Source: Methyloversatilis sp. (GTDB taxonomy: Bacteria > Pseudomonadota > Gammaproteobacteria > Burkholderiales > Rhodocyclaceae). Taken from it: DNA of 64,000 bases. The notes under the pieces were generated by a model that was given only the letters and a program-made list of their open reading frames with translations, was not told the DNA's origin and did not search any database. Below are positions 7,056-24,463 of this stretch, piece after piece (position 1 is the first letter of the stretch; every line of letters starts with the position of its first letter). Made by a program: the position numbers and the translations under genes. The stretch is taken from the NCBI RefSeq assembly GCF_030698125.1, contig NZ_JAUYNV010000005.1:62001-126000 (forward strand), in the 5' to 3' direction.

Positions 7056-7114
7056 ACCGTGACGGCGCCATACACAGGGACCGACCGGATGAATGAACTT
7101 CGAAGGAGCACGAC

Positions 7115-7825: not shown

Positions 7826-7858
7826 CCGACATGAACAGGAATTGCCGGGAGGATTGAC

Positions 7859-9571
7859 ATGGCATGGCTGACCCGTCGCGACTATGCGGCGATGTACGGA
7901 CCGACCCGGGGCGACATGGTGCGTCTCGGCGATACCTCGCTGCTGGCCGAAATCGAACACGACTTCGCGGTACCGGGCGACGAATGCCTGCACGGCGGCG
8001 GCAAGACGCTGCGCGACGGACTGGGCATGATGGGCGGGCTGACGTCCGCGCAGGGCGCACTGGACATGCTCATCAGCAATGTCGTGGTGATCGACGCGGT
8101 GGTCGGCATCGTGAAGGGCGACATCGGCATCAAGGACGGGCGCATCGTCGCCATCGGCAAGGCGGGCAACCCGCATGTGATGGACGGCGTGCATCCGCAG
8201 CTGCTGGTCGGCAACGCGACGACGGTACGCGATGGCGAAGGACTGATCGCCACGGCGGGCGGGCTCGACGTGCATGTGCATTTCGACTCGGCGCAGCTGG
8301 TCGAACACGCGCTGGCGTCCGGCATCACGACGATGTTCGGCGGTTCGCTCGGCCCGATCACGGTCGGCATCGACTGCGGCGGCGCGTGGAACGTCGCGCG
8401 CATGCTGCAGGCGTCGGAGCAGTGGCCGATGAATTTCGGCTTTCTCGGCCGCGGCAATTCGTCGCGTCCCGAATCGCTGGTCGAACAGATGCAGGCCGGC
8501 TGCATCGGCCTGAAGATCCACGAGGACTGGGGCGCCACGCCGGCCACCATCGACACCTGCCTGTCGGTCGCCGATGACATGGATTTCCAGGTGCAGCTGC
8601 ACACGGACACGCTGAACGAATCCGGTTTTCTCGAAGACACGCTGGCGGCGACCAAAGGCCGCACCATCCACATGTATCACACCGAGGGGGCCGGCGGCGG
8701 TCATGCGCCGGACGTGATCAGCGTCGTCGGCCAGGCCAACTGCCTGCCGTCATCGACCAATCCGACCAACCCTTACACCGTCAATACTTTCGACGAACAC
8801 CTCGACATGATCATGGTGTGCCATCACCTGAACCCGGCGGTGCCGGAGGACGTGGCGTTCGCCGAAAGCCGCATCCGCGCGCAGACGATCGCCGCCGAAG
8901 ACGTGCTGCACGACATGGGCGCGATCTCGATGCTGGGTTCGGACAGCCAGGGCATGGGTCGCATCAATGAAGTCATCTGCCGCACCTGGCAGCTGGCCAG
9001 CAAGATGAAGGACCAGTTCGGCCGCCTGCCCGAGGAACGCACGCGCAGCGCCGACAACGAACGCATCCTGCGCTACATCGCGAAATACACGATCAATGCC
9101 GCGCGCTCCTTCGGCGTCGACCAGCACGTCGGTTCGCTGGAACCGGGCAAGCTGGCCGACATCGTGCTGTGGCGTCCGGCGTTCTTCGGCATCAAGCCGG
9201 AAATCGTCGTCAAGGGCGGCTTCATCGCCTATGGCGCGATGGGCGATTCGGCTGCGTCGCTGATGACCTGCGAGCCGCTCATCATGCGCCCGCAGTGGGG
9301 CGCCTTCGGCCGCGCACCGCAGGCGCTGTCGGCCAATTTCGTCTGCGCCGCTTCGCTTGGGCGCGACCTGGAAGGCCGGCTCGATCTGCGCAAGACGCTG
9401 CTGCCGGTGCACGGCACGCGCACGCTGACCAAGGCCGACATGGTGCGCAACGGCACCTTGCCGAACATCACGGTCAATCCGCAAACCTTCGAGGTCAGCG
9501 TGGACAACCACGTGATCGGCTGCGCGCCGGCCACGCATGTGCCGCTGAACCGCCTTTACATGATGAGGTAG
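7859..9571 (+). CDS. ureC: urease alpha (catalytic) subunit, divergent
   Basis: A 570-residue amidohydrolase with a dinuclear nickel site. All catalytic parts of Klebsiella UreC can be found: HVH in GLDVHVH, the carbamylated Lys and His in [30 protein letters not shown], the flap MVCHHLNP, the Arg of FAESRIR, and the Asp of GSDSQ. Two substrate-facing spots differ. The usual GTGPAxGTxATT loop is replaced by [13 protein letters not shown] and is three residues shorter. The Ala of SDSQAMGR is Gly (SDSQGMGR). These may change the pocket, although urea remains the default substrate. It lies 33 bp after ureAB, and ureG starts 6 bp after its stop. Confidence 0.92.
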
Positions 9572-9577
9572 CCCCGT

Positions 9578-10219
9578 ATGTCATCGGTCATGCCCCTGCA
9601 GTACGCCCGGCCGCGCGGTGCGGCGCGTGTCGGTGTCGGTGGCCCGGTCGGATCGGGCAAGACGGCGCTGCTCGAGCAGCTCATTCCACGCTTCATCGCG
9701 CGCGGCACCGACATCGCCGTCATCACCAACGATCTGGTCACCGCGGAAGACGCCGAACGCATCCGGCGCAGCGGCATCATCGCGCCGGAACGCGTGCTGG
9801 CGGTCGAAACCGGCGCCTGCCCGCACACCGCGATCCGCGAAGACCCGACGCTCAACCTTGCCGCGGCCGATGAACTTGACCGGACCTGGCCGGGCCTGGA
9901 ACTGATCCTGGTGGAAAGCGGCGGCGACAACCTCGCGTCGTCGTTTTCGCTTGATCTGGTCGATTACTGGCTGTTCGTCATCGACGTGGCCGGCGGCGAC
10001 GACATTCCGCGCAAGCGTGGCCTGGGCGTGCTGCAGTGCGACCTGCTGGTCATCAACAAGACCGACCTGGCGCCATTCGTGCGCGTGGATCTGGCGCGCA
10101 TGACGCGCGAAGCCGAAGAGGTGCGGGCCGGCAAGCCGACCCTGCTTACCAACTGCGCCAGTGGCGAAGGCGTCGATGCCGTGGTCGACGCCATTGTGCG
10201 CGGGGTTCTGTTTGACTGA
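9578..10219 (+). CDS. ureG: urease accessory GTPase UreG
   Basis: A 213-residue SIMIBI-class GTPase that drives nickel insertion into urease. The P-loop is GPVGSGKT, the nickel-binding Cys-Pro-His is present in [19 protein letters not shown] is the switch region and NKTDLAP is the guanine-specificity motif. No His-rich N-terminus is present. It starts 6 bp after ureC, and its stop overlaps the ureD start. No defects are visible. Confidence 0.95.
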
Positions 10220-11082: not shown

Positions 11083-12249
11083 TCAATACATCAGCTGAAC
11101 GCCGACGATGAACTTGTCGATCGACTTGGCTGCACCGCCCGGATCCATGTCGGAATACACCGCGGTGATGCGCGCGTTGTGGCCGGCCATCACGTAAGTG
11201 ACACCGAAGTCCCACTGGTCAGACTTGGAACCCACCTGCGGATCGAATTCCTGATAGCGCGCGTACGGCTGGAACTGGCCGATGCCGAACTTGCCCGGAA
11301 TCAGGTAGGCCGCTGTCAGCAGGTAGGCTTCCCCTTCGGTTGCGCCACCGCAGTTGTTGACGTTGACCAGACCGCAGGCGGCTGCAACGGCCCCGCCGGT
11401 GTCAGCCACGCCATCGGTGTCGTAGTCGTAGTAGGCGCCTTCCAGCGTCAGTACGCCGCCATTCGACAGCTTGGTTTCCATCAGCGCATCGATGTTCCAC
11501 GCCGTGTAGTCACCCGAGGCGCCGGCGATGCCGACACCGTTCTTCTGCGTCTGGACAGCCGCGCCGATGGTCAGGACTTCCTTGCCGCCGAAGTAGCTGT
11601 TGGTACCGTAGTAGCCCAGTTCCGGATCCCAGAAGCTGTAGGCCAGACGACCGGCGTACAGCAGCTTGTCGGAGTCGTTCGACAGGCCGGCGCCGCGGTT
11701 CTTGCCCTGGTAGGCGCCGACTGCGTACAGCAGCTTGCCGCCGAGCACATTGCCCCACAGCAGCGCGCCGTCGTCACGACCGGTGAAGGCGTTCGGGTAC
11801 TGCGACACCATCGGGTATTCCCACACGTTGGCGAAGTAGGGGCCGGCGAGGTTGGCGCGGTCGGTCGGCGGCAACATGCGGCCGAACCACAGGTTGAGGC
11901 CGTCCATCAGTTCGAACTGGGCGACCACGTCGAGCAGGCGCATCGATTCATCCGACTGGCGCTCGAAATTCACCATGCCGCCGATCTGCTTGGTGATCTT
12001 GCCGCTGGTGATGATACGGATGGAATCGACCGCAAAATCCTTCGAGCGCGACGAGCCGTTCGGCGCACCGTCATCCGCGCTGGTGAAGGACGTACGCATC
12101 CACAGACCGAGTGTGAGATAGCTCTCGCCGGGGCCGGATACGGTGACGCCGGCATTTGCGGTGCCGGCAGTCGCCAGGGCGACAGCGAGCGCGCCGAGGC
12201 GCGGAAGGGACGACACGCTCCGCAGACGGGTTTTGAGGGTGCTTTTCAT
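11083..12249 (-). CDS. fmdC: FmdC-like outer-membrane porin
   Basis: A 388-residue outer-membrane protein. It has a signal peptide of about 33 residues (SVSSLPRLGALAVALATAGTANA) and then alternating beta-strand sequence ending in DKFIVGVQLMY. Glycine- and tyrosine-rich amphipathic strands (YFGGKEVLTIGAAVQTQ, FGVTYVMAGHNARITAVYSD) support a beta-barrel. In Methylophilus methylotrophus, FmdC is a porin for short-chain amides and urea encoded with fmdDEF, and the same company is seen here. It lies downstream of fmdB with a 68 bp gap and ends before a terminator. The family is clear; the substrate is inferred from position. Confidence 0.82.
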   Translation of the reverse strand: MKSTLKTRLRSVSSLPRLGALAVALATAGTANAGVTVSGPGESYLTLGLWMRTSFTSADDGAPNGSSRSKDFAVDSIRIITSGKITKQIGGMVNFERQSDESMRLLDVVAQFELMDGLNLWFGRMLPPTDRANLAGPYFANVWEYPMVSQYPNAFTGRDDGALLWGNVLGGKLLYAVGAYQGKNRGAGLSNDSDKLLYAGRLAYSFWDPELGYYGTNSYFGGKEVLTIGAAVQTQKNGVGIAGASGDYTAWNIDALMETKLSNGGVLTLEGAYYDYDTDGVADTGGAVAAACGLVNVNNCGGATEGEAYLLTAAYLIPGKFGIGQFQPYARYQEFDPQVGSKSDQWDFGVTYVMAGHNARITAVYSDMDPGGAAKSIDKFIVGVQLMY

Positions 12250-12317: not shown

Positions 12318-12647
12318 TCAGTGACTGATCATCCAGGGACGTTTGGTGGGGAATGCCTTCGAACCGTCCTTGCCTACCGCGGTCGTTCGGCTGGGTTTGC
12401 TGCTGCAGCACGAACACCCGGGACCGTGCTTGCGGCTGGCAAGCACCGGCTCATGGCGGCTGCGTTCGTTGGTGGCATGCGCGAAGCGCGTCTCGTGCGG
12501 CATGTCGGCGAAGGACGGTGCCGTCACCAGCACCCGCTGCGCGGGCGAACCGCACTCCGGGCACAGGCAGGCGGCGTCGCGCTGGGCGATGCTGCGCAGG
12601 GCGGAAAATCCGCCATGCGCCTCGCACTGATAGTCGTAGGTCGGCAT
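12318..12647 (-). CDS. fmdB: FmdB zinc-ribbon protein
   Basis: A 109-residue protein of the FmdB family, described in Methylophilus as linked to formamidase expression. The N-terminus MPTYDYQCEAHGGF and the pair C-x2-C in CLCPECGSPAQRVL make the zinc ribbon. A second cysteine cluster, GPGCSCC, lies further on. It starts 10 bp after fmdA. It could be regulatory or a metal or assembly factor; family members have no firmly established mechanism. Confidence 0.85.
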   Translation of the reverse strand: MPTYDYQCEAHGGFSALRSIAQRDAACLCPECGSPAQRVLVTAPSFADMPHETRFAHATNERSRHEPVLASRKHGPGCSCCSSKPSRTTAVGKDGSKAFPTKRPWMISH

Positions 12648-12657
12648 GGCGGCGGCC

Positions 12658-13887
12658 TCAGAGATCCGGCGACAGCGGCATCTGGATGCTGCCGTCGATG
12701 AATTTCACCGGGCCGGCTTCGTTCGGCATGATGTCGAAGTCGAAAATGTCCGTCGGCAGCCACAGCGTGGCGCAGGCATTCGGAATGTCGACCACGCCGC
12801 TGATGTGGCCCTGCACCGGTGCCGTACCCAGGATCGAGTACGCCTGGGCGCCCGAGTAGCCGAACTTCTTCAGGTATTCGATGGCATTCAGGCAGGCCTG
12901 GCGATAGGCGACATGCACGTCGAGGTAGTGCTGCTTGCCCTGTTCGTCGACCGAAATGCCTTCGAAGATGAGGTAGTCGTCGTACTTCGGCGTGATCGGG
13001 CTGGGCTTGAAGATCGGGTTCTTGATGGCGTACTTCTTCATGCCGTCCTTGATGATGCTCACCCGCAGATGCAGCCAGCCGGCCATTTCAATGGCGCCGC
13101 AGAAGGTGATTTCACCGTCGCCCTGCGAGAAGTGCAGGTCGCCCATCGACAGGCCGCCACCCTTCACATAGACCGGGAAGTAGATGCGCGAGCCGCGCGA
13201 CAGATCCTTGATGTCGCAGTTGCCGCCGTGCTCGCGCGGCGGCACGGTGCGGGCGGCTTCGGCAGCCGCCTTGTCGCGCGCCTCGCCCTTCAGGCGGCCC
13301 ATGTGCGCGGTCGGTGCGCACGGCGGGCAGCCCAGCGGCGGCACACGGTCCGGCTCGGTGTTGATGAAGTCGATTTCGCGCTCGTTCCAGTCGGCCAGCA
13401 GCTTCGGGTCCGGCAGGCAGCCGATCAGGCCCGGGTGGATCAGGCCGGCGTACTTCACGCCCGGCACATGGCGCGATTCGGTGAACATGCCCTTGATGTC
13501 CCAGATCGACTTCTGGGCTTCCGGGAAGTGTTCGGTCAGGAAGCCGCCGCCGTTCTTCTTCGAGAAGAAGCCGTTGAAGCCCCACAGGCTGTCTTCCTTG
13601 GCACCGATGTCCAGGATGTCGACCACCAGCAGGTCGCCCGGCTCGCAGCCTTCGACACCGATCGGCCCGGACAGGAAGTGCACCGTCGTCAGGTCGATGT
13701 CGCGCACGTCGTCTGCGCTGTCGTTGTTCTGGATGAAGCCGCCGGTCCAGTCGTAGGTTTCGATCTTGAAATCGTCACCCGGCTTGACCCAGCAGACGAT
13801 GGGGATGTCCGGGTGCCAGCGGTTGTGCACCATGTCGTTCTCGTACGGCGACTGCTTCAGGTCAACCTTGATCAGGGTCTCGGCCAT
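12658..13887 (-). CDS. fmdA: formamidase FmdA
   Basis: A 409-residue formamidase of the acetamidase/formamidase (FmdA_AmdA) family, which hydrolyses formamide to formate and ammonia. Family blocks are NDMVHNRWHPDIP, FLSGPIGVEGCEPGDLL, HPGLIGCLPDP, LPxGxxSMGDLHFSQGDGEI-like (GGLSMGDLHFSQGDGE), the Cys in FCGAIEM, and YSGAQAYSILGTAPVQG. No signal peptide, so cytoplasmic. It follows urtE after 38 bp with AAGGAG before the start and precedes fmdB. Together with the DMFase gene it suggests use of simple amides as a nitrogen source. Confidence 0.95.
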   Translation of the reverse strand: MAETLIKVDLKQSPYENDMVHNRWHPDIPIVCWVKPGDDFKIETYDWTGGFIQNNDSADDVRDIDLTTVHFLSGPIGVEGCEPGDLLVVDILDIGAKEDSLWGFNGFFSKKNGGGFLTEHFPEAQKSIWDIKGMFTESRHVPGVKYAGLIHPGLIGCLPDPKLLADWNEREIDFINTEPDRVPPLGCPPCAPTAHMGRLKGEARDKAAAEAARTVPPREHGGNCDIKDLSRGSRIYFPVYVKGGGLSMGDLHFSQGDGEITFCGAIEMAGWLHLRVSIIKDGMKKYAIKNPIFKPSPITPKYDDYLIFEGISVDEQGKQHYLDVHVAYRQACLNAIEYLKKFGYSGAQAYSILGTAPVQGHISGVVDIPNACATLWLPTDIFDFDIMPNEAGPVKFIDGSIQMPLSPDL

Positions 13888-13925: not shown

Positions 13926-14615
13926 TCAGACGGACAGGAACTGCTTGATGCGCGCGGTATCCGTGTCGGCGCGCGTGCTTTCATGGACAAGGCGTCCGCC
14001 TTCGATGACGAACAGGCGGTCGGCCACGTCCATTGCGAAACTGAGGACCTGCTCGGACACGACGATGGTGATTTCGCGCAGCTTGCGGATTTCGTTCAGC
14101 GCCTTCGCGATGTCCTTGATGATCGACGGCTGGATGCCTTCGGTCGGTTCGTCGAGCAGCAGCACCTTGGGGTCGGTGACCAGTGCGCGCGCGATGGCCA
14201 GCTGTTGCTGCTGGCCGCCGGACAGGTTGCCGCCCTTGCGGCTGCGCATTTCCCACAGCACCGGGAACAGGGCGTAGATCTCTTCCGGCACCTTCTTGAC
14301 CTTGGCGTTTTCCAGGCCGGTGTGGATGTTCTCCTCGACCGTCAGCGTCGGGAAAATCATGCGGCCCTGCGGCACGTAGGCGATGCCCTTGGCGACGCGC
14401 TTGTAGCTTTCGTCCTTCGATACTTCCTTGCCGGCGACTTCGATGTGGCCGCTCTTGATCGGCAGGATGCCGATCAGCGATTTGAACAGCGTGGTCTTGC
14501 CCATGCCGTTGCGGCCCATGATGGCAATCGTTTCGTTCCTGTTCGCTTCGAACGAAATGCCGTGCAGGGCCTCGCTCTGACCATAGGCGACGTGGAGGTC
14601 TTTGACGTTCAGCAT
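13926..14615 (-). CDS. urtE: urea/amide ABC transporter ATPase UrtE
   Basis: A 229-residue LivF/UrtE-type ATPase. Walker A is GRNGMGKTTLFKSL, the signature is LSGGQQQQLAIAR, Walker B is VLLLDEPTEGIQP, and the switch residue lies in VVSEQ. The start MLNVKDLHVAYGQ at 14615 is chosen because the frame upstream is repeat DNA, not protein. It is separated from urtD by a 222 bp repeat-containing gap, although both belong to the same transporter. Confidence 0.93.
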   Translation of the reverse strand: MLNVKDLHVAYGQSEALHGISFEANRNETIAIMGRNGMGKTTLFKSLIGILPIKSGHIEVAGKEVSKDESYKRVAKGIAYVPQGRMIFPTLTVEENIHTGLENAKVKKVPEEIYALFPVLWEMRSRKGGNLSGGQQQQLAIARALVTDPKVLLLDEPTEGIQPSIIKDIAKALNEIRKLREITIVVSEQVLSFAMDVADRLFVIEGGRLVHESTRADTDTARIKQFLSV

Positions 14616-14837
14616 GACGGAGTCCTTTGCTTGGGAAGGTTTGATGCAGCGGCCCTCACCCCGGCCCTCTCCCGCTGATGCGGGAGAGGGAGCAGGGCAG
14701 TCCGCGCCCGCATCGGCGCGCGGAGGCGGCAAGCAGGCGCCCTTACCCTCTCCCGCATCAGCGGGAGAGGGTGGCGCGAACGCGCCGGGTGAGGGCAGCG
14801 CGCCAGCGCCGGGTGAGGGCCGCTCTGTGCATACATT
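14616..14837. repeat. REP-like inverted repeat pair between urtD and urtE
   Basis: Two 26 bp palindromes of the CCCTCTCCCGC-GCGGGAGAGGG type lie at 14666-14691 and 14746-14771, with loops TGAT and ATCA, so they are inverted copies of each other. CCCTCACCCCGG precedes the first. Two copies of GCGCCGGGTGAGGGC follow the second (to 14820). This matches the interspersed palindromic repeats common in GC-rich Proteobacteria. Inside an operon it may set mRNA stability or limit downstream expression. Confidence 0.85.
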
Positions 14838-15581
14838 TCAGTGGCCCAGATAAACGTCGATGACCTTGGGATCGTTCTGCACCTTGTCCATCGATCCTTC
14901 GGCGAGGATCTTTCCCTGGTGCATGACGGTGACCTTGTGGGCGATGCGCTTGACGAAATCCATGTCGTGCTCGATCACGATCACCGAGCGTCCCTTGCAG
15001 ATGCGCTGCAGCAGCTCGCCAGTCAGTTCGCGCTCGCGCACGCTCATGCCGGCGATCGGCTCGTCGAGCATCAGCAGTTCGGGTTCCTGCATCAGCAACA
15101 TGCCGATCTCCAGCCACTGCTTCTGGCCATGGCTGAGCAGGCCCGCTTCGACGTCGAGCGAGTCGCCCAGGCTGATTTCGTCGGCCACCGACTGCACGCG
15201 TGCCTTGACCTCTTCGGTGCACCGGAAGCCCAGTGCGCCGAACACGCTGCGACCGCGCGGGAAGGACACCTCGAGGTTCTTGAAGACGGAGAGGTTTTCG
15301 TAGATCGACGGCGTCTGGAACTTGCGGCCGATGCCGGAGCGCACGATCTTGTGCTCGGCCATCTTGGTCATTTCGTGGTTCTTGAACTTGATGCTGCCGC
15401 CACTGGCGCGCGTCTTGCCGCAGATCAGGTCGAGCAGCGTGGTCTTGCCGGCACCGTTCGGGCCGATGATCACGCGCAGCTCGCCGCGATCGACGTACAG
15501 GGTCAGCGCGTCGATGGCCTTGAAACCATCGAAGGACACGGTGAGGTCTTCCACCGCAAGTACGAAGTCGGTATTGCTCAT
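14838..15581 (-). CDS. urtD: urea/amide ABC transporter ATPase UrtD
   Basis: A 247-residue LivG/UrtD-type ATPase. Walker A is GPNGAGKTTLLDLI, the signature is LSHGQKQWLEIG (His for the usual Gly, typical of UrtD), Walker B is LLMLDEPIAGM, and the switch His is in VIEHDMDFV. It follows urtC after 17 bp. It pairs with UrtE at the cytoplasmic face of the UrtB-UrtC channel. Confidence 0.94.
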   Translation of the reverse strand: MSNTDFVLAVEDLTVSFDGFKAIDALTLYVDRGELRVIIGPNGAGKTTLLDLICGKTRASGGSIKFKNHEMTKMAEHKIVRSGIGRKFQTPSIYENLSVFKNLEVSFPRGRSVFGALGFRCTEEVKARVQSVADEISLGDSLDVEAGLLSHGQKQWLEIGMLLMQEPELLMLDEPIAGMSVRERELTGELLQRICKGRSVIVIEHDMDFVKRIAHKVTVMHQGKILAEGSMDKVQNDPKVIDVYLGH

Positions 15582-15598: not shown

Positions 15599-16816
15599 TC
15601 AGGCGGATGTGCCCTGCACGCCGTCAGGCAGTGCGGTGCGGGCCAGCGGCTTGCCGCCGTGCGGTGCGCCGCTGTGCAGCGGGGTGGCGGGCGGAACGTC
15701 GGACGACGGTGTGCTGTCGGTGCCGGCAGCGGGCTTGTCCTTGCGTTTGCCCAGGCGCGGCTTGACGTGGCTTTCGTACAGGCCGGCCAGTCCGTTCGGG
15801 AAGGCCAGCACGACGCCGATGAACAGCGCAGCCATCAGGAACAGCCACAGGTCGGGGAAGCTTTCGGAAAAGTAGGTCTTGCCGAAATTGACCAGCAGCG
15901 CGCCATACACCGCACCGACCAGCGACATGCGTCCGCCGACCGCGGCGAAGATGACCATTTCGATCGACGGCACGATGCCGACCAGCGACGGCGACATGAA
16001 GCCGACCTGCAGCACGAACATCGCGCCGCCGATCGCCGACAGCATCGCGGCGAGGCAGAAGGCGAACACCTTGAACATCGACACGTCATAGCCGGAGAAG
16101 CGCACGCGGTCTTCCTTGTCGCGCATCGCCAGCAGCAGCGTGCCGAGCTTGCTCAGCTGGATCCAGCGGCACAGCAGGATGGAGGCGATCAGCAGTCCGG
16201 CATTGAGGAAGTACAGGACGTACTTGGCTTCGTCGGTACGCGTGTCCCAGCCGAGGATGGTCTTCAGGTCGGTGATGCCGTTGACGCCGCCGGTGTAGCC
16301 CTGCTGACCGACGATGAGCACGGTCAGGATCAGGCAGACCGCCTGCGTGATGATGGCGAAATACACGCCGCCGACCCGGCGCCGGAACATTGCGAAGCTG
16401 ATGATGAAAGCGAGCAGCGTGGGCACCAGCAGGACAGCCAGCAGCGCCAGCGGCAGGTGGCGGAACGGCTCCCACCACAGCGGCAGCTCGGTGATCTGGT
16501 TCCAGTCCATGAAGTCCGGAATGCCCGGCGTGCTCTGGATCTTGGTGGTTTCCGGGTCGGACGCCTCCAGCTTCATGAACATCGCCATCATGTAGCCGCC
16601 GAGGCCGAAGAACACGCCCTGGCCGAGGCTGAGCACGCCGCCGTAGCCCCACAGCATGACCAGGCCGACGGCGACGAAGGCGTAGGTGAGGTATTTGCCG
16701 ACCAGGTTCAGGCGGAACAGGTCCATCGTCAGCGGGAACACGACGACGATGATCAGCGCGAGTATCAGCACGCTTCCCATTCCGCTACGTGCTAGCCAGC
16801 TCTTGATTGAGTCCAT
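15599..16816 (-). CDS. urtC: urea/amide ABC transporter permease UrtC (FmdF-like)
   Basis: A 405-residue LivM/UrtC-type inner-membrane permease with about 9-10 hydrophobic segments. Recognisable stretches are GGVLSLGQGVFFGLGGYMMAMF, YTGGVNGITDL, LAMRDKEDRVRFSGYD and FAAVGGRMSLVGAVYGALLVNF. The C-terminus carries a disordered tail of about 50 residues rich in Pro, Ser and Gly, longer than needed for transport. The start MDSIKSWL at 16816 follows GGAGAACCC; codons further upstream overlap the tail of urtB. The equivalent Methylophilus gene is fmdF. Confidence 0.92.
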   Translation of the reverse strand: MDSIKSWLARSGMGSVLILALIIVVVFPLTMDLFRLNLVGKYLTYAFVAVGLVMLWGYGGVLSLGQGVFFGLGGYMMAMFMKLEASDPETTKIQSTPGIPDFMDWNQITELPLWWEPFRHLPLALLAVLLVPTLLAFIISFAMFRRRVGGVYFAIITQAVCLILTVLIVGQQGYTGGVNGITDLKTILGWDTRTDEAKYVLYFLNAGLLIASILLCRWIQLSKLGTLLLAMRDKEDRVRFSGYDVSMFKVFAFCLAAMLSAIGGAMFVLQVGFMSPSLVGIVPSIEMVIFAAVGGRMSLVGAVYGALLVNFGKTYFSESFPDLWLFLMAALFIGVVLAFPNGLAGLYESHVKPRLGKRKDKPAAGTDSTPSSDVPPATPLHSGAPHGGKPLARTALPDGVQGTSA

Positions 16817-16865
16817 TGGGTTCTCCTTGGATCGTGGGTATTCGGGGGTCGGAGCGCAGCCGGAC

Positions 16866-17780
16866 TCAGCGGCGGATCTTCGAAGCAAAGAGGCCTTGCG
16901 GACGCAGCATCAGGATGGTCACGATCATCATCAGCGTGAGCACCTTGGCCATCGAACCGGTCATGAAGAACTCGGCGATCGATTGCGTCTGGGCGATGCC
17001 GAAAGCCGAAGCCACGGTGCCGAGCAGGCTGCCTGCGCCGCCGAAGGTCACCACCAGGAAGGCATCGACGATGTACAGCGAGCCGCTGGTCGGGCCGGTC
17101 GAGCCGATCGTCGTGAAGGCCGCACCGGCGACGCCGGCAATGCCGCACCCGATGGCGAAGGTCAGACGGTCGGTGCGGCTGGTGTTGATGCCGGTGGCGT
17201 TGGCCATCGGGCGATTGGCCACCGTGGCGCGCACACGCAAACCCCAGCGCGAGCGGTACAGGGCGAGCAGCACGCCGCCGGTGACCAGTGCGGTCAGCGC
17301 AAGCACGAACAGACCATTGATCGGGATGTCGAGGCCTTCTGCCGGTGCCCACGAGCCGAGCAGCCAGTCGGGCAGCGTCGGGCTCACTTCACGTGCGCCG
17401 AAGGTCGAACGGAAGGTCTGCTGCATGGCCAGCGACAGGCCCCAGGTGGCGAGCAGCGTGTCGAGCGGGCGCTTGTACAGGTGTCGTATCAGCGCCCACT
17501 CGATGAACCAGCCGAAGACGAAGGCGATGCAGAACGCCGCCACGATGGCAAACGGGAAGTACATCGACGCGAAACCGGGCAGGAAGGTTTCGGTCAGCGA
17601 CGAGAACATGTAGATCGTGTAGGCGCCGATGGTCATGAACTCGCCATGCGCCATGTTGATCACGCCCATCTGGCCGAAGATGATGGCCAGCCCGAGGCCC
17701 ATCAGCAGCAGCACCGAAAACAGGCTGAGGCCTGCGAAACCCTGCATCAGGGTGATGTTCATGATGTCGGTCAGTGACAT
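16866..17780 (-). CDS. urtB: urea/amide ABC transporter permease UrtB (FmdE-like)
   Basis: A 304-residue LivH/UrtB-type permease with about eight membrane segments. The hallmark is GLAIIFGQMGVINMAHGEFMTIGAY, followed by RPLDTLLATWGLSLAMQQ and a C-terminal PQGLFASK. GGAGATCAC precedes the start. It lies 121 bp after the binding-protein gene, and urtC starts 49 bp after its stop. The equivalent Methylophilus gene is fmdE. Confidence 0.93.
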   Translation of the reverse strand: MSLTDIMNITLMQGFAGLSLFSVLLLMGLGLAIIFGQMGVINMAHGEFMTIGAYTIYMFSSLTETFLPGFASMYFPFAIVAAFCIAFVFGWFIEWALIRHLYKRPLDTLLATWGLSLAMQQTFRSTFGAREVSPTLPDWLLGSWAPAEGLDIPINGLFVLALTALVTGGVLLALYRSRWGLRVRATVANRPMANATGINTSRTDRLTFAIGCGIAGVAGAAFTTIGSTGPTSGSLYIVDAFLVVTFGGAGSLLGTVASAFGIAQTQSIAEFFMTGSMAKVLTLMMIVTILMLRPQGLFASKIRR

Positions 17781-17901: not shown

Positions 17902-19176
17902 TTACTGGTAACCCTTGGGGAACGGGTTCGGTTCGATCAGTTCGGGCGACTCGGCGACCACCTTGAACTGGCCGTCGAGTTGCGCCTGGCCGATGCGCGC
18001 CTTGCTCCACAGGTGATGGTTTTCATGCACCTTGACGTAGCCTTCGGGCGCGGTCTTCAACTCGATGCCACCGGAGGCGGCGGCGATCTTGTCGACATCG
18101 AAGCTGCCGGCCTTCTCGACCGTCGCCTTCCAGATCCACGGGCCGAGATAGCCGGCCTGCGTCACGTCGCCTATGACCGACTTCGGACCGTAGGCCTTCT
18201 TGAATGCCTCGACGAAAGCCTTGTTGTTGGCGTTGTCGAGTGACTGGAAGTACTTCATCGACGAGTAGAAGCCGGCGATGTTTTCACCGCCGATGCCCAG
18301 CACTTCGTCTTCGGTCACCGAAATGGTCAGCAGGAACTGCTTGTCCGCGGTGATGCCGGCCGCCTTCAGCTGCTTGTAGAAGGCGACGTTCGAGCCGCCG
18401 ACCACGGCTGCGAAGATGCAGTCCGGCTTGGCCAGCTTGATCTTGTTGATCAGCGAGTTGAAATTGGTGTGGCCGAGCGGGTAGTACTCCTCGCCGGCGA
18501 CCTTGCCGAGCTTGGCAACGGATTCGATGTGCTTGCGCGCGATCTTCATCGAGGTGCGCGGCCAGATGTAGTCGGAGCCGACCAGGAAGAAGGTTTTGGC
18601 CTTCTTCTCCTTGGCTGCCCAGTCCAGGCCGTACAGGATCTGCTGCGTGGCTTCCTGGCCGGTGTAGATCACGTTCTTCGACTGTTCCAGTCCTTCGTAG
18701 AACGTCGGGTAGTACAGCATGCCGTTTTCTTTTTCGAAGATCGGCAGCACTGCCTTGCGCGAAGCCGATGTCCAGCAGCCGAACACGCATGCGACCTTGT
18801 CCTGCACCAGCAGCTTCTTCGACTTTTCGGCAAAGGTCGGCCAGTCGGATGCGCCGTCTTCCTTGATCACGCGGATCTTGCGGCCGAGCACGCCGCCCAT
18901 CGCATTGATCTGGTCGATCGCCAGCTGTTCGGCCTGGATCGAGCCGGTTTCGGAAATGGCCATGGTGCCGGTCGCCGAATGCAGCTGCCCCACGACGACC
19001 TCGGTATCCGTCACCGCGAGCTTGGTGGTGTTCACCTTCGCCGTCGGGAACTGCGCAGCCTGGGCCAGCGCCATGCCGGGCATCATCATCGCAGGCATCG
19101 CGGCCATGCCCATCAGCACCTTGCGGCGCTGTTCGTCGGTAAGCGGCGTCTGGATCGGGTCTTTCTTGTCAGCCAT
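17902..19176 (-). CDS. fmdD: urea/short-chain amide binding protein FmdD/UrtA
   Basis: A 424-residue periplasmic binding protein that starts the minus-strand transporter operon. The N-terminus contains a twin-arginine stretch (EQRRKVLMGMAAMP) and a hydrophobic core ending near ALAQAAQF, so Tat export is probable. The blocks SATGTMAISE, EDGASDWPTFAEKS, VFGCWTSASRKAVLP, FYEGLEQSKNVIY and FFLVGSDYIWPR parallel the urtA product at 4488-5666. The start at 19176 is chosen because GGAGAACAG lies just upstream. The gene diverges from the hybrid kinase gene across a 333 bp control region. Urea or amide is the likely ligand; which one is not shown by sequence alone. Confidence 0.92.
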   Translation of the reverse strand: MADKKDPIQTPLTDEQRRKVLMGMAAMPAMMMPGMALAQAAQFPTAKVNTTKLAVTDTEVVVGQLHSATGTMAISETGSIQAEQLAIDQINAMGGVLGRKIRVIKEDGASDWPTFAEKSKKLLVQDKVACVFGCWTSASRKAVLPIFEKENGMLYYPTFYEGLEQSKNVIYTGQEATQQILYGLDWAAKEKKAKTFFLVGSDYIWPRTSMKIARKHIESVAKLGKVAGEEYYPLGHTNFNSLINKIKLAKPDCIFAAVVGGSNVAFYKQLKAAGITADKQFLLTISVTEDEVLGIGGENIAGFYSSMKYFQSLDNANNKAFVEAFKKAYGPKSVIGDVTQAGYLGPWIWKATVEKAGSFDVDKIAAASGGIELKTAPEGYVKVHENHHLWSKARIGQAQLDGQFKVVAESPELIEPNPFPKGYQ

Positions 19177-19509
19177 ATCTGTTCTCCTGAGCGGGGACGG
19201 GTTGGGGAGCTTCAGGCGATCCGGTATTGGCCGTTGATTCACTTTTGTGCGGTGCACCGCAACCGGTCGCTGCGGTCCGAAAAGTAGTTGCCGGGGGGGC
19301 GTAGCCGGAATACGTCAATCGACGTATGTGAGTACGCAGCGCAACACTCGGGATGCGCAGCGTTCGGTGCTAAGGTGAAGTCCTGCGCTGACGCACTGCA
19401 CCACCAAGTGGCTCATGCACTTTTCTGGTGCGCTTTCGGCGGCGTGGAGGGAAGCTGTACCTTGTTCTCCGGGCGGGTGCTCACGCACCTTGCCCGGAGC
19501 GTTTCTTGC
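19177..19509. promoter_or_regulatory. divergent control region fmdD / hybrid kinase
   Basis: A 333 bp gene-free region between two divergent start codons. A perfect dyad TACGTC-AATC-GACGTA lies at 19311-19326; its form suits a LuxR/FixJ-type response regulator such as the one encoded at 22982. A hairpin at 19467-19499 holds the ribosome site of the downstream kinase gene. I could not place a convincing sigma-70 or sigma-54 promoter. Confidence 0.5.
19467..19499 (+). promoter_or_regulatory. hairpin covering the ribosome site of the hybrid kinase gene
   Basis: CTCCGGGC (19467-19474) pairs with GCCCGGAG (19492-19499). Inside it, GTGC pairs with GCAC around TCAC. The GGAG at the 3' arm (19496-19499) is the only ribosome-site candidate near the ATG at 19510, so the fold would hide it. 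Confidence 0.5.
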
Positions 19510-22500
19510 ATGAGTCGGGCAGACCTCCAGCCGCCCGATCCGATGTCAGAAGCCACCCAGCAGATTTTCAAGATCCGTCGCGACTACAACACCTGGGTCG
19601 CGACCGAAACGCTCGAGGACTACGCGCTGCGCTACACGCCGCGCAGCTTCCGGAAGTGGTCGGAATGGCGGGTCGCCAACACCGCCTTCGGTGCCGTGTC
19701 CTTTCTCGCGCTGGAAGCCATCGGCGGCGCGATCGCCCTGAACTACGGCTTCACCAACGCGTTGTGGGCCATCCTGTTCGTCGGCCTGATCACCTTCCTG
19801 ACCGGTCTGCCCATCAGCTACTGCGCCGCCAAGTACGGCGTCGACATGGATCTGCTGACGCGCGGCGCCGGCTTCGGCTATCTGGGCTCGACCATCACCT
19901 CGCTGGTCTATGCCAGCTTCACCTTCATCTTTTTCGCCATTGAAGCGGCCATCATGGCGCTGGCATTCGAACTGTATTTCGGCATGCCGCTCGCGTGGGC
20001 CTATCTGCTGTGTGCGGTGGTGGTGATTCCGCTGGTGATCCACGGCGTCACCTTGATCAGCCGCATCCAGCTATGGACGCAGCCGGTCTGGATCGTGCTG
20101 CTGGTGTTGCCCTACATCGCGGTCTGGCTGCAGGCGCCGGAAATGTTCAGCGACTTCACCAGCATGAGTGGCCGTTCGTCGGGCACCAGCGACTTCGACT
20201 GGCTGATGTTCGGTGCCGCCTCCACCGTGGCCATTTCGCTCGTGGTGCAGATCGGCGAACAGGTCGATTACCTGCGCTTCCTGCCGGAGAAGAACCGGGA
20301 GAACCGCTACCGCTGGTGGGCCGCCGTGCTGATCGCCGGCCCGGGCTGGATCGTGCCCGGCATGGTCAAGATGCTCGGTGGCGCCTTTCTCGCCTTTCTC
20401 GCGCTGCAGGCGATGGTGCCGGTCGACCGCGCGCTCGAGCCGACGCAGATGTATCTGGCCGGCTACGGCTATGTGTTCGATTCACCCGCCGTCGTGCTGG
20501 CGGTAACCGTCGTCTTCGTCATCGTGTCGCAGCTCAAGATCAATGTGACCAACGCCTACGCCGGTTCGCTCGCCTGGTCGAATTTCTTCGCCCGGCTGAC
20601 GCACAGCCACCCGGGCCGTGTCGTGTGGCTGGTGTTCAATGTGGTGATCGCGCTGCTGCTGATGCTGCTCGGCGTGTTCGAGGCGCTGGAACACGTGCTC
20701 GGCCTGTACGCCAACCTCGCCATTGCATGGGTCGGCGCACTGGTGGCCGACCTGGTGGTGAACAAGCCGCTCGGCCTGTCGCCGTCGCACATCGAATTCA
20801 AGCGCGCCCACCTGTACGAAATCAATCCGGTCGGGTTGGGGTCGATGGCGATTGCCACCGTCGTGTCCGTACTGGCCTACACCGGCTGGATGGGTGATGT
20901 GGCGCAGGCATTTTCGCCGGTCATTTCGCTTGCCACCGCCTTCGTCATCGCGCCGCTTATTGCCTGGGGCACGCAGGGCCGCTACTACATCGCGCGGCGC
21001 AGCACGATGCAGTGGCGACCGGGCCAGACCGTCACCTGCCACGTCTGCGAGAACAGCTTCGAATCGGAAGACATGGCCTACTGTCCGGCCTATGGGCAAC
21101 CGATCTGCTCGCTGTGCTGCACGCTTGAATCGCGCTGCCACGACCGCTGCAAGACCGATGCGAGCGCAGCGGCCCAACTGCATGCCGTGCTCAACGCCAT
21201 CCTGCCGATGCGCCTGGCGCGTCGGATCAATTTCCGGGTCGGCCACTTCCTGGTCGTGTTCCTGTCGCTGACTTCGCTGCTGGCGGTCATCTTCGGCGTC
21301 GTGTACTACCAGGAAGCGGTGGTCGCCGATCTGTATGCGGCGACGCGTGAAACCCTGCTGCTGAGCTTGCTCAAGACCTTCACACTGCTGGTGCTGCTGT
21401 GCGCGGTGTGCGCCTGGTGGATCGTGCTCGGCTCGGAAAGCAGGCGTCTGGCGCAGGACGAGTCGAACCGTCAGAACCAGTTGCTGATGCGCGAGGTGGA
21501 GGCCCACCGCAAGACGGATCTCGCACTGCAGAAGGCGAAGGATTCCGCCGAATCGGCCAACCTTGCAAAGACGCGCTACGTGACCGGCATCAGCCACGAA
21601 CTGCGCACGCCGCTGAACAGCATTCTCGGCTACGCGCAGATCCTGCTGCGCGAGCTGGGGCAGGGCTCGCTGGCGCAGGCTGGCGCCGCCAAAGGCGCGC
21701 CAGCGTCAGGCGCGCTGACCCAGGTCGACACCCAGCGGCGCGCGCTCGGCACCATCCTGCGCAGCGGCGAACACCTGCTTGGGCTGATCGACGGCCTGCT
21801 TGATCTGGCGCGCATCGAGGCCGGCAAGCTGCGGCTCGATCCGTCACCGATGCCGATGCGCGAACTGCTCGATGACCTGGCCAAGATGTTCGAGCCGCAG
21901 GCGGTGCGCAAAGGCCTGCGCTTTCGTATCGAAACCACCGGCCGCATGCCCGACTACGTGCGGGTAGACGTGAAGCGGCTGCGCCAGGTGCTGATCAACC
22001 TGCTGGCCAATGCGGTGAAATTCACGTCGCGCGGCGAAGTGGTGCTGCGTATCGACTACCGCATGGAAGTGGCGCGCTTCGAAGTGGCCGACACCGGGCC
22101 GGGCATCGCGCCGGAAGACCATGCACGCATCTTCGTGCCATTTGAACGCAGCAGTTCGGGCCGTGGCCTGGCCGAACCCGGGGCCGGCCTCGGCCTGACC
22201 ATCAGCCGCATGCTCACCTCGCTGATGGGCGGCGAGCTGACGCTGGACAGCGAACCCGGTCGAGGCAGCACCTTCCGTCTGCGGCTCTACCTGCCCGAAT
22301 ACCTGTCGGTGCCGACCATGGTCAGACCGACGCGCCAGGTCATCGGTTACGACGGAGAGCGCCGGCGCGTGCTGCTGATTGACGATGACGCCACGCAGCG
22401 CCACATGCTGGCCGCCATGCTGATGCCGCTCGGTTTCGGCATCGATGAGGCGGCGAGTGGACGCGAAGGGCTCGAACGGGTCGCGCTGCAGCGCCCCGAC

Positions 22501-22992
22501 GTGGTGTTGCTCGACATCAACATGGACGGCATGGATGGCTGGGAAACCGCGCGCCACCTGCAGCACTCGGCCGGGGCGCCGATCCCGGTCATCATGGTGT
22601 CGGCCAATGTGTTCGACAACCGCAGCGAGCTGTTGCGCAACGCGGGTTGCGTCGGTTTCGTGCCCAAGCCGGTCATGGAATCGGAGCTGCTGGAACAATT
22701 GCGCGACGCGCTCGATCTGACCTGGCATGTCGATGTCGCTGAACCGTCGAATGTTGCATCCCGCAACGACGCGAGCGATGTACCCTTGCGGGCGCTGGAT
22801 GAAGAGGAACGCTCGGCGCTGCTCAGGCTGTCCCGTCTCGGCCACGTGAACGGTATCGCGACCCTGCTCGATGCCATCGCGGAACGGTCGGATGAGGCGC
22901 GCAAGGACTGCGGCAGGCTGCGCAAGCTCATCGATGGTTTTGACCTGATCCGTTTCACCGAATTGCTGCAACGTGATGCCCATGTCCAATGA
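19510..22992 (+). CDS. NCS1 transporter-like hybrid sensor histidine kinase
   Basis: A 1160-residue membrane sensor. Residues about 15-490 form an NCS1-type (cytosine/allantoin permease-like) region of about 12 membrane segments, starting YNTWVATETLEDYALRY. Residues 510-547 (bases 21037-21150) are cysteine-rich (TCHVCENSF, YCPAYGQPICSLCC, RCHDRC) and may bind metal. Two further membrane helices and a coiled coil lead to HisKA (His in SHELRTPLN, codon 21595), HATPase (NLLANAVKF, DTGPGIAP, GAGLGLTISR) and a receiver (Asp in LLDINMDGMDGW, codon 22513; Lys in PKPV). A helical tail ends the protein. The start at 19510 has GGAG upstream, though 19543 is possible. It overlaps the response-regulator gene and diverges from fmdD, so it probably senses an amide, urea or related compound. 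Confidence 0.88.
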   Translation: MSRADLQPPDPMSEATQQIFKIRRDYNTWVATETLEDYALRYTPRSFRKWSEWRVANTAFGAVSFLALEAIGGAIALNYGFTNALWAILFVGLITFLTGLPISYCAAKYGVDMDLLTRGAGFGYLGSTITSLVYASFTFIFFAIEAAIMALAFELYFGMPLAWAYLLCAVVVIPLVIHGVTLISRIQLWTQPVWIVLLVLPYIAVWLQAPEMFSDFTSMSGRSSGTSDFDWLMFGAASTVAISLVVQIGEQVDYLRFLPEKNRENRYRWWAAVLIAGPGWIVPGMVKMLGGAFLAFLALQAMVPVDRALEPTQMYLAGYGYVFDSPAVVLAVTVVFVIVSQLKINVTNAYAGSLAWSNFFARLTHSHPGRVVWLVFNVVIALLLMLLGVFEALEHVLGLYANLAIAWVGALVADLVVNKPLGLSPSHIEFKRAHLYEINPVGLGSMAIATVVSVLAYTGWMGDVAQAFSPVISLATAFVIAPLIAWGTQGRYYIARRSTMQWRPGQTVTCHVCENSFESEDMAYCPAYGQPICSLCCTLESRCHDRCKTDASAAAQLHAVLNAILPMRLARRINFRVGHFLVVFLSLTSLLAVIFGVVYYQEAVVADLYAATRETLLLSLLKTFTLLVLLCAVCAWWIVLGSESRRLAQDESNRQNQLLMREVEAHRKTDLALQKAKDSAESANLAKTRYVTGISHELRTPLNSILGYAQILLRELGQGSLAQAGAAKGAPASGALTQVDTQRRALGTILRSGEHLLGLIDGLLDLARIEAGKLRLDPSPMPMRELLDDLAKMFEPQAVRKGLRFRIETTGRMPDYVRVDVKRLRQVLINLLANAVKFTSRGEVVLRIDYRMEVARFEVADTGPGIAPEDHARIFVPFERSSSGRGLAEPGAGLGLTISRMLTSLMGGELTLDSEPGRGSTFRLRLYLPEYLSVPTMVRPTRQVIGYDGERRRVLLIDDDATQRHMLAAMLMPLGFGIDEAASGREGLERVALQRPDVVLLDINMDGMDGWETARHLQHSAGAPIPVIMVSANVFDNRSELLRNAGCVGFVPKPVMESELLEQLRDALDLTWHVDVAEPSNVASRNDASDVPLRALDEEERSALLRLSRLGHVNGIATLLDAIAERSDEARKDCGRLRKLIDGFDLIRFTELLQRDAHVQ

Positions 22993-23890
22993 TTCCCCGT
23001 TCCATCAGCCGGTCGTGCTGGTGGTGGACGACGCGCCTGATTCGCTCGGCTTCCTGTGCGAGGCGCTGTCCCAGGCCGGCTACCTCGTGCTGATCGCCAA
23101 CGACGGCGAGTCGGCGCTGGCCCGGCTCGAACTGGTCGTGCCCGACGCCATCCTTCTGGATGCGGTCATGCCCGGCCTGTCCGGTTTCGAAACCTGCCGC
23201 CTGATCCGGGAAGAGCCCGGGCTGTCGCATGTGCCGGTCATCTTCATGACCGGCCTGTCGGGTACCGCGGAAGTGGTCGAAGGCTTCACGGCCGGCGGCA
23301 CCGACTACGTGGTCAAGCCGCTGCGCGTAGAGGAAGTGCTGGCACGGCTGTCGGCCCACGTGCGCAATGCACGTGCGGTGCGCATCGCGCGCCAGGCGGT
23401 GGACGTGGCCGGGCTGGGCGTGCTGGTGATCGACGCGCTCGGCCGCATCGCCTGGCGCTCGCCGCGGGCCGCGGACAGCCTGGCGCAGTTCGGCATCGAC
23501 GCGTCCGATACCCCGCCTGGCGAGTCGCTGGCCCAGCTTGCGCGCATGGCGGACGAGCCGGGCACCGACGCAAAGCTGATCGGCGAAAGCGGCGAAAATT
23601 CCCTCTACGCACGCAGCCTGGGCGCGGTCGGGCTGGGCGAGCACATGCTGCTGCTCGATGTGCGCCGGCGCGGTGAGTCGAGCACCCGCATCGCCGGCGC
23701 CCAGCTGACGCCCCGTGAGGCCGAAGTGCTGTCCTGGCTGGCCAAGGGCAAGACCAACCGCGATATCGGTGACATTCTCGGCATGAGCCCGCGCACCGTG
23801 AACAAGCACCTCGAGCACGTGTACGAAAAGCTCGGGGTCGAAACGCGTGCCGCCGCAGCGGCGCTCGCGATGCGGGCCGAAAGCGACTGA
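22982..23890 (+). CDS. LuxR-family response regulator
   Basis: A 302-residue regulator: receiver (VVLVVDDAPDS, phospho-Asp in AILLDAVMPGLSGFE, Lys in VVKPLRVEE), a linker of about 100 residues with a possible PAS-like fold (GLGVLVIDALGRIAWRS), and a LuxR/FixJ DNA-binding domain (LTPREAEVLSWLAKGKTNRDIG and RTVNKHLEHVYEKLGV). It starts inside the end of the kinase gene (start 22982; 22973 is also possible), so the two are coupled and form a cognate pair. The dyad at 19311-19326 is a candidate target. Confidence 0.9.
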   Translation: MSNDSPFHQPVVLVVDDAPDSLGFLCEALSQAGYLVLIANDGESALARLELVVPDAILLDAVMPGLSGFETCRLIREEPGLSHVPVIFMTGLSGTAEVVEGFTAGGTDYVVKPLRVEEVLARLSAHVRNARAVRIARQAVDVAGLGVLVIDALGRIAWRSPRAADSLAQFGIDASDTPPGESLAQLARMADEPGTDAKLIGESGENSLYARSLGAVGLGEHMLLLDVRRRGESSTRIAGAQLTPREAEVLSWLAKGKTNRDIGDILGMSPRTVNKHLEHVYEKLGVETRAAAAALAMRAESD

Positions 23891-23896
23891 ACGGTC

Positions 23897-24463
23897 ATGG
23901 CCGGGACGGCAACCCCGCGTCTGTACACCTTTGCAGCCGGCGATGCCGGACCGTGGCACATCACCGGTGTGCGCGCCGTCATCGGCGCAGGCCTGGCGAT
24001 GGCGCCGCGGCTCGACGTCGTCGCCGGGGCGGCGGAAGGCGCCGGAACATGGCTGCTGCGCGGCATCGCCAGCAATGAACGTTACGTCACCCGGCCGGAG
24101 AAGCAGCAGCTGCTTGCGCTGCAGCCGCCGCTGGCCCGCCCCGGGGCGCGCAGCGCCGTGCTGATTCCGATCCGCAAGTCGGCCGCCTGGTGGGCGCTGA
24201 CGCAGGACGAACGGCGCGACATCCTGGAAGAGCAGTCGCACCACGTGGCGCTTGGCATGCGCGCGCTGCCGGCAGTGGCGCGCAAGCTGCACCACTGCCG
24301 CGACCTGTCGGAGACCGAACCGTTCGACTTCCTGACCTGGTTCGAATTCGCACCCGGGGATGCGGCCGTGTTCGACGAACTCACCGCCGCCCTGCGCGCC
24401 TCGCCCGAGTGGGCCTACGTTGAGCGCGAAGTCGAAGTGACGCTGGCGTTCGATCCGCACTGA
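23897..24463 (+). CDS. chlorite dismutase-like haem protein (short clade)
   Basis: A 188-residue protein of the chlorite dismutase family, short (clade 2) type as in Klebsiella and Nitrobacter. Recognisable blocks are WHITGVRAV, LRGIASNERYVTR, IPIRKSAAWWALTQDERR, the proximal haem His region RKLHHCRDL, and FDFLTWFEFAP. Such proteins turn chlorite into chloride and oxygen in vitro; their role in non-perchlorate bacteria is unsettled. It starts 6 bp after the response regulator, so it probably shares its transcript. A link with amide or urea metabolism is inferred only from position. Confidence 0.82.
   Translation: MAGTATPRLYTFAAGDAGPWHITGVRAVIGAGLAMAPRLDVVAGAAEGAGTWLLRGIASNERYVTRPEKQQLLALQPPLARPGARSAVLIPIRKSAAWWALTQDERRDILEEQSHHVALGMRALPAVARKLHHCRDLSETEPFDFLTWFEFAPGDAAVFDELTAALRASPEWAYVEREVEVTLAFDPH

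Follow-up and report, generated by a model that had tools for sequence, protein, structure and literature searches.

A predicted NCS1-type hybrid histidine kinase as candidate short-chain amide/urea sensor beside a urtABCDE-fmdA operon in Methyloversatilis

Sensor kinases that use a transporter fold as their receptor are known either as SLC5-STAC or as Amt proteins (PMC13022988, PMC5764959, PMC9100948; literature statements here and below refer to excerpts of the cited articles). In the SLC5-STAC kinases CbrA, CrbS and RpuS, a transporter-fold receptor is fused to a histidine kinase and tied to nutrient uptake or use, and in the ammonium sensor kinase Ks-Amt5 a transporter of a nitrogen compound has been turned into a HisKA-kinase sensor. 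Here we describe a gene of comparable design in a 64,000-nucleotide stretch of Methyloversatilis sp. DNA (contig NZ_JAUYNV010000005.1, positions 62,001 to 126,000; hereafter the window). Its product differs from the SLC5-STAC kinases in that an NCS1 fold, a cysteine cluster and a predicted transmembrane hairpin stand where those have an SLC5 fold and a four-helix STAC domain, with the cysteine cluster occupying the place of CbrA's STAC domain (PMC13022988). Unlike Ks-Amt5, which has an Amt fold, comes from one anammox bacterium and has no hybrid receiver in its domain list (PMC5764959), it is of NCS1 type and its family is present in 53 of 398 sampled Pseudomonadota genomes. We consider it likely that this protein is a transporter-derived receptor kinase (transceptor) for short-chain amides or urea, which would drive the genes for their uptake and hydrolysis.

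The N-terminal domain shares the fold and the hallmark arginine and tyrosine of the NCS1 permeases CodB, Mhp1 and MetT, of which MetT takes a non-cyclic nitrogen compound (PMC13390362). Unlike these, it is fused to a kinase, has a lysine in place of a threonine at the sodium site Na2 and a phenylalanine in place of Trp108, and carries an invariant glutamate at the position of Mhp1 Gln121. The gene set beside the kinase is of the same kind as the fmdCABDEF cluster of Methylophilus methylotrophus, which is reported to be induced by formamide and urea (PMC10781810), and the amiE-fmdA-fmdB-urtABCDE clusters of Pseudomonas. The excerpts on these clusters name no amide/urea sensor kinase, and the term "histidine kinase" occurs 0 times in either main text (PMC10781810, PMC13209695). 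One amide locus of Pseudomonas veronii is reported to lack amiC and amiR (PMC13209695), and the kinase gene pair is present in another P. veronii strain (L049). A second urtABCDE with genes for a hybrid kinase and a LuxR protein has been reported at the same kind of locus, with no NCS1 domain mentioned in the excerpt (PMC13296017). Among the matches listed from the open-licence PMC literature, we recognised no description of an NCS1-kinase fusion or of an amide/urea transceptor.

The protein lies, with a partner regulator and a conserved DNA site, next to uptake and breakdown genes for small amides and urea, and is on that account a strong candidate for the missing amide/urea sensor. With it, the short list of known transporter-fold sensor kinases would gain an NCS1-type class. 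It offers a widespread, concrete candidate for bacterial short-chain amide/urea sensing, which is directly testable since its partner, DNA site and targets are predicted. It also provides a natural experiment in how a receptor may arise from a transporter through loss of ion coupling. As Pfam misses the NCS1 domain, the annotation of such proteins probably goes no further than hybrid kinase.

Domain identity of the kinase

Profile comparisons and structure modelling identify the N-terminal domain as NCS1, though this relationship is hard to see by direct search. No Pfam family matches the N-terminal region of the kinase, and NCS1 models gave no match at E ≤ 10 to 38 family members (HMMER's filters drop most matches above 0.1). 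NCS1 was likewise not found in the N-terminal half with NCBIfam, phmmer or a profile search of PDB sequences, nor did a PF02133 search of the genome itself match this half; direct searches returned weak and unrelated names only (Prok-RING_1, DUF2304 and TIGR03943). The family profile found a weaker relative in one genome, a stand-alone permease of 497 residues (L116:5949-7439) with 28% identity to the permease domain of the kinase. This protein matches the Pfam NCS1 family (Transp_cyt_pur, PF02133) with 36.4 bits against a cut-off of 23.5, and TIGR00800 far below that model's cut-off, and a reverse search from it recovered the kinases at E-values of 5e-27 to 7e-38 together with two further stand-alone permeases.

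Comparisons with hhalign, on alignments built in this analysis and with each E-value referring to one comparison, gave the permease domain of the kinase 97.1% with a set of four classical NCS1 permeases, 99.1% when this set was enlarged to seven and 99.9% with the three-member bridge group, the NCS1 comparisons spanning 383-411 columns. Against a profile led by E. coli CodB, the score was 99.8% over 399 columns. An SLC5/SSF identity was rejected, as the control comparison with 17 SSF/SLC5 proteins scored 4.6% and no SSF Pfam match was obtained. An AlphaFold2 model of residues 13-665 was built from 79 alignment rows (predicted local distance difference test, pLDDT, 83.8; predicted template modelling score, pTM, 0.84). 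In a Foldseek search of PDB with this model, CodB and Mhp1 structures took ranks 1-5 (E 2.6e-10 to 3.1e-7), with an SLC5-type sialic-acid symporter and other members of the wider fold at lower ranks.

A single open frame (19288-22992, forward strand) covers the gene, and 19288 is the start of its longest open reading frame. Translation from 19510 yields 1160 residues, and residues are numbered from there throughout, which reproduces the cysteine numbers of the original prediction. The start is probably the ATG at 19543 (residue 12, MSEATQQIF) rather than 19510, because many relatives, though not all, have M, or V as a possible GTG, in this column or adjacent to it and show no similarity upstream of it. 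HisKA (687-772), HATPase_c (820-928) and Response_reg (954-1064) are matched by Pfam far above the cut-offs (E 1.1e-16 or better), and the 124 long alignment rows show no variation at the glycines and asparagines of the N, G1 and G2 boxes. The protein thus combines HisKA, HATPase and receiver domains with intact catalytic residues, as a hybrid histidine kinase does, and since these residues are invariant in all three domains the kinase should be active.

In the AlphaFold2 model, the last NCS1 helix is followed by a cluster of eight cysteines, and this in turn by another helical hairpin, which continues into HisKA. The cysteines (residues 510, 513, 525, 533, 536, 537, 543 and 547; spacing C-x2-C-x11-C-x7-C-x2-CC-x5-C-x3-C) are invariant in 131 of 131 family alignment rows, near-duplicates included, and the stand-alone L116 permease is without the cluster. 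The best Foldseek matches of a separate model of the cluster (pLDDT 75.5) are FYVE, RING and PHD fingers, none at E ≤ 0.001, and Pfam Prok-RING_1 matches 10 of 38 members weakly (best E 0.38); on this model, zinc binding by the cluster is plausible. No STAC match appeared in Pfam at E ≤ 10, where the presence of a STAC model in Pfam was not checked and no STAC comparison was run.

These results bear out the original prediction of an NCS1-like front half, a compact cysteine cluster at residues 510-547 and a full HisKA-HATPase-receiver chain. It had named an SLC5 score for the N-terminal region as one outcome that would speak against it; this was looked for and did not occur. From its gene call of 19510-22992 the open frame and the end stand, with the start likelier at 19543 from the relatives. 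The full-protein domain search it had suggested recovers the kinase and receiver part directly, and in place of a Pfam NCS1 match the front half was recovered by way of the L116 permease.

The stand-alone L116 permease, of one lineage with the permease domain of the kinase, adjoins genes for a carbon-nitrogen hydrolase and a distant UrtA-like protein (L116:5949-9168), and has, by eye, an arginine at the position of Lys343 of the kinase. It is possibly a real amide/urea-type NCS1 transporter.

Operon linkage, palindrome and co-encoded regulator

The family is widely distributed and its neighbourhood is conserved. One scan gave 395 pattern matches, 378 of which encode relatives, far beyond chance; the best 80 of these 378 were kept, and the named records are beta- and gammaproteobacteria. 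Of the 53 genomes mentioned above, one is that of the window, 12 others belong to its order, a further 14 to its class and 26 to other Pseudomonadota classes. We classified 130 loci as amide type, defined by fmdA and/or an amide-type urtA (106), amide type with urease in range (4), urease (10) or urea-type urtA (7), with neither amide nor urea markers in the locus DNA of the remaining 3. Since the 130 loci include near-duplicates and at least two contigs twice (L047/L198, L064/L200), counts at 90% non-redundancy are safer; of the 53 non-redundant rows used below, two are nearly identical, those of the window and L007.

As the original prediction held, the kinase diverges from an amide/urea operon, which runs urtABCDE-fmdA-fmdB-porin on the opposite strand. 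Among amide-type loci, a divergent urtA lies within 1 kb in 102 of the 105 whose upstream DNA reaches far enough, and 71 of the 79 with 8 kb upstream contain fmdA. Of 119 loci with room for it, 117 have a LuxR gene on the 3' side of the kinase; in the other two (L118, L119) the kinase is shorter and has no receiver. In these variants (L118:5401-9347 and L119) the NCS1-Cys domain sits on a short kinase adjoining fmdA, and L118 has a separate receiver-kinase and an OmpR-type regulator. A quick IQ-TREE tree of 74 rows needs 4 changes of the amide/urea label (support by Shimodaira-Hasegawa-like approximate likelihood-ratio test only; outgroup branches very long), and on this tree the kinase would have switched to a urease or urea-transport operon about four times. 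Four genomes (G246, G379, G225 and G158) hold one member of each type.

The gap between urtA and the kinase contains a palindrome whose full form, TACGTCA-N2-TGACGTA, is a 7-2-7 inverted repeat, the form bound by NarL (PMC7419079). A word-pair search recovered TACG-N8-CGTA from this gap in 46 of the 53 non-redundant rows, or 101 of 108 when redundant rows are counted too; in one block-shuffled control, no word pair occurred in more than 11 of 53. A search of the window with up to 2 mismatches gave one other match, and as 28 of 100 shuffles do as well, the window count alone says little. The argument from the palindrome rests on the position of its copies, not on their count. Across 110 amide-type loci (2.07 Mb) a related pattern matched 183 times, against 6 for a reversed-letter control. 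The urtA/kinase gap accounts for 155 matches, and 23 precede fmdA at a distance of 69-116 bases; of the remaining 5, 3 lie just before amiE and two (in L024 and L081) are unassigned. With a stricter pattern, searched in 22 genomes, the gap site is present in each of the 13 that carry an amide-type kinase; of 7 further matches in these, 3 precede amiE, 3 precede fmdA and one is unassigned, and among the other 9 genomes one (G360) has a single asymmetric match. No site was found within 1.5 kb before amiE in 8 of 11 amide-kinase genomes with an amiE match, in 3 of which (G146, G356 and G387) a site precedes fmdA instead. Outside the amide class, the palindrome lies just before urtA in 5 of 7 loci with a urea-type urtA (L123, L124, L191, L192 and L193) and is present in 1 of 10 urease-class loci (L132).

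The window's own genome holds an identical copy far from the window (contig C23:53456-53471; L220), which ends 26 bases before an open reading frame for the aliphatic amidase amiE (NF009802, 717 bits, cut-off 427). We predict this gene to be a regulon member in trans. It is followed by an AAA-ATPase-like open reading frame (GvpN/CobS-like, below cut-offs). A third site in this genome (C17:317988) is asymmetric.

The co-encoded regulator has a receiver and a GerE helix-turn-helix by Pfam and is thus of NarL/LuxR type. Where its recognition helix has Asn at position 6 and His at position 11 (SPRTVNKHLEH), TACGT stands on both sides of the palindrome in 32 of the 33 non-redundant loci having a site. 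With other residues at these positions (14 loci), TACGC stands on both sides in 9, the halves are mixed in 3 and TACGT is found in 2; kinship inflates these counts, much of the contrast being due to one group from other Pseudomonadota classes and L132. The covariation of helix and half-site points to the co-encoded regulator as the palindrome-binding protein. Since loci with an unchanged helix may also be without a site, it is this covariation, not absence of the palindrome, that implicates it.

A promoter scan of the urtA/kinase intergenic region found no sigma-70 promoter. Sigma-54-like -24/-12 sites directed toward the kinase occur in 6 of 53 intergenic rows (letter-shuffled mean 0.35) and toward urtA in 0 of 53 (letter-shuffled mean 0.2), and sigma-54 sites therefore do not explain the control of urtA.

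Substrate pocket, signalling model and alternatives

Pocket residues were mapped by hhalign to the CodB-led profile, with site roles in CodB and Mhp1 taken from PMC9379551 and PMC4195764, and the alignment confidence is 9 at the mapped residues of transmembrane helices (TM) 1, 3 and 8. Arg216 and Tyr285 of CodB, found family-wide in NCS1, correspond to Arg256 and Tyr350 of the kinase, both invariant, and CodB Asn280 (Mhp1 Asn318) corresponds to Asn345. Thr138 replaces CodB Gln105, and Phe141 replaces Trp108, which in CodB stacks on the base (PMC9379551, PMC4195764); four positions after Trp108, at the place of Mhp1 Gln121, stands the invariant Glu145. The Na2 sodium ligands Thr278 and Thr279 of CodB are changed to Lys343 and Ile344, and this feature of sodium-coupled members is absent from the kinase. 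Across the non-redundant rows, 55 amide-linked and 14 urea-linked, Lys343, Glu145, Asn345 and Thr138 do not vary, and Leu replaces Phe141 in 4 of the 14 urea-linked ones. The invariant lysine at Na2 suggests a sodium-independent function, and a pocket of lower aromatic character suits a small non-cyclic ligand more than it does a purine.

Based on these sequence and model data, we propose that the NCS1-type domain binds a short-chain amide (formamide, acetamide) or urea, and that binding would shift its bundle and hash helices. The cysteine hub, perhaps holding zinc, and the transmembrane hairpin with its coiled coil would relay this movement to the HisKA dimer. Phosphate, whether or not it travels by way of the fused receiver, would then reach the LuxR/NarL-type regulator encoded alongside, which would bind the 7-2-7 palindrome and presumably activate urtABCDE-fmdA-fmdB-porin, amiE elsewhere and perhaps its own operon. 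In some lineages the module would have been re-wired to urea transport or urease genes. The conserved divergent urtABCDE-fmdA arrangement, the switching to urea and urease partners and the palindrome common to fmdA and amiE uphold the amide/urea part of the original guess at a ligand. Its purine/allantoin part gained no support, in neighbourhoods that were not searched for such genes, and the change of Trp108 to Phe, or Leu in some urea-linked rows, is a hint against it. We consider somewhat less likely than not the fuller claim that this is the first NCS1-type transceptor: a sodium-uncoupled, non-transporting amide/urea receptor with a Lys-plugged Na2 site and a RING-like zinc hub, whose module moved from amide to urea about four times while palindrome and helix co-evolved.

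Several points weigh against the proposed amide/urea transceptor. At the TM6 break the alignment confidence is just 2, which is low. No histidine phosphotransfer (HPt) domain was identified, and the C-terminal tail has no conserved histidine in the family alignment. The mapped pocket residues are nearly the same in amide- and urea-linked members, and the ligand class is therefore not readable from them; a specificity difference in the mapped pocket was sought across the 55 and 14 rows and not found. The palindrome was not found in 7 of 53 amide rows or in 2 of the 7 urea-type-urtA loci, and of the 10 urease-class loci 9 have none in the upstream stretches examined. The locus DNA searched also holds no TACG-N8-CGTA for six urea-linked loci (L120, L122, L127, L128, L189 and L206) and four amide loci, although their helix is near the common one. 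By bare count, TACGT-N6-ACGTA occurs at three places in the window's own genome, as does its reversed-letter control, and a stricter pattern occurs in 14 of 22 genomes, its control in 11.

The dedicated ATP-binding cassette (ABC) importer that adjoins the kinase, and the invariant Lys343 at the position of the Na2 ligand Thr278 (55 of 55 and 14 of 14 rows), argue against an NCS1 domain that still works as a proton- or sodium-coupled transporter, with a kinase that would monitor flux through it, a mode suggested for CbrA. In related folds, however, an ion-site lysine can serve proton coupling, and the fold and the hallmark Arg256 and Tyr350 are retained here. For CbrA, a combination of histidine recognition, transport and signalling has been described (PMC13022988, PMC7096432), whereas in Ks-Amt5 the kinase fusion was accompanied by loss of transport (PMC5764959), and on balance we find a working transporter rather unlikely.

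Also unlikely, to a similar degree, is that the domain senses urea alone, with the fmdA neighbourhood reflecting import of both urea and amides by UrtABCDE. UrtA passes a urea-binding-protein model, and this and the near-identity of the mapped pocket residues speak for it; however, the palindrome also precedes fmdA and amiE, which are amide-acting by family name, and two positions of the domain track operon type. Position 310 is Glu in 47 of 55 amide rows and Asp in 13 of 14 urea rows, and position 409 is Gly in 53 of 55 amide rows and another residue in 13 of 14 urea rows. Such tracking is a hint of tuned specificity. In a stricter four-clade test 310 alone passed, and three control groupings yielded no column.

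Binding of the palindrome by another regulator, with the kinase/LuxR pair controlling something else, would suit the urea-linked and amide loci that combine a near-common helix with no site. We judge it improbable given the covariation of recognition helix and half-site and the use of the 7-2-7 form by NarL (PMC7419079); in addition, TACG-N8-CGTA was not found in the locus DNA searched for five urease loci whose helix is altered (SPAT[VA]KKHLE), though absence alone proves little. About equally improbable is a reading in which sensing falls to the cysteine cluster, by redox, zinc or an iron-sulphur centre, with the permease domain as a scaffold. The invariance of the cysteines and their absence from the stand-alone L116 permease speak for it, but many polar residues at substrate positions of the permease domain are invariant, and the linked operons concern amides and urea, not redox or metal.

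Feature coordinates and neighbouring genes

Table 1. Features of the kinase locus, in window coordinates.
Feature	Position	Strand	Basis or remark
Porin-like protein, possible amide porin	11083..12249	-	NCBIfam ExtI porin 118 bits, below cut-off 150
fmdB-type zinc-ribbon protein, RPWMISH domain, downstream of fmdA	12318..12647	-	
fmdA, formamidase	12658..13887	-	NF045496 773 bits, cut-off 500
urtE-like ATPase	13926..14732	-	ABC_tran; name from operon position; start of open reading frame, true start maybe later
urtD-like ATPase	14838..15581	-	ABC_tran; name from operon position
urtC-like permease	15599..16888	-	BPD_transp_2; name from operon position
urtB	16866..17780	-	TIGR03409 403 bits, cut-off 250
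urtA, urea-type ABC transporter binding protein	17902..19176	-	TIGR03407 527 bits, cut-off 493
Palindrome TACGTCAATCGACGTA (7-2-7), predicted regulator-binding site	19311..19326	.	Word-pair search
NCS1-type hybrid histidine kinase	19543..22992	+	Alternative starts 19510 (original prediction) and 19288 (longest open reading frame)
NCS1-permease-like domain, about residues 13-493	19546..20988	+	L116 relative, hhalign, AlphaFold2, Foldseek
Eight-cysteine cluster, residues 510-547	21037..21150	+	Family alignment; possibly zinc-binding, RING/FYVE-like (weak)
Two long helices: predicted transmembrane hairpin and coiled coil leading to HisKA	21232..21501	+	AlphaFold2 model
HisKA, phospho-acceptor His696	21568..21825	+	Pfam; His696 in 124/124 long rows
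HATPase_c with N, G1 and G2 boxes	21967..22293	+	Pfam; family alignment
Receiver domain; Asp1002, Ser1031, Lys1053	22369..22701	+	Pfam; three residues invariant in 124 long rows
LuxR/NarL-type response regulator (receiver and GerE helix-turn-helix)	22973..23890	+	Pfam; start overlaps kinase stop

A urease cluster (6345-10219) encoding UreF, a fused gamma-beta subunit, an alpha subunit and a UreG-like GTPase lies near the amide operon, and the palindrome scan of the window gave no match within it. Directly 3' of the LuxR-type regulator, a chlorite-dismutase-like gene (23897-24463, forward strand) scores 24.9 bits with PF06778 against a cut-off of 25. Seen at no other surveyed locus, this gene recurs in 5 of the 8 loci of the Methyloversatilis group (L006-L013), being displaced in L011.

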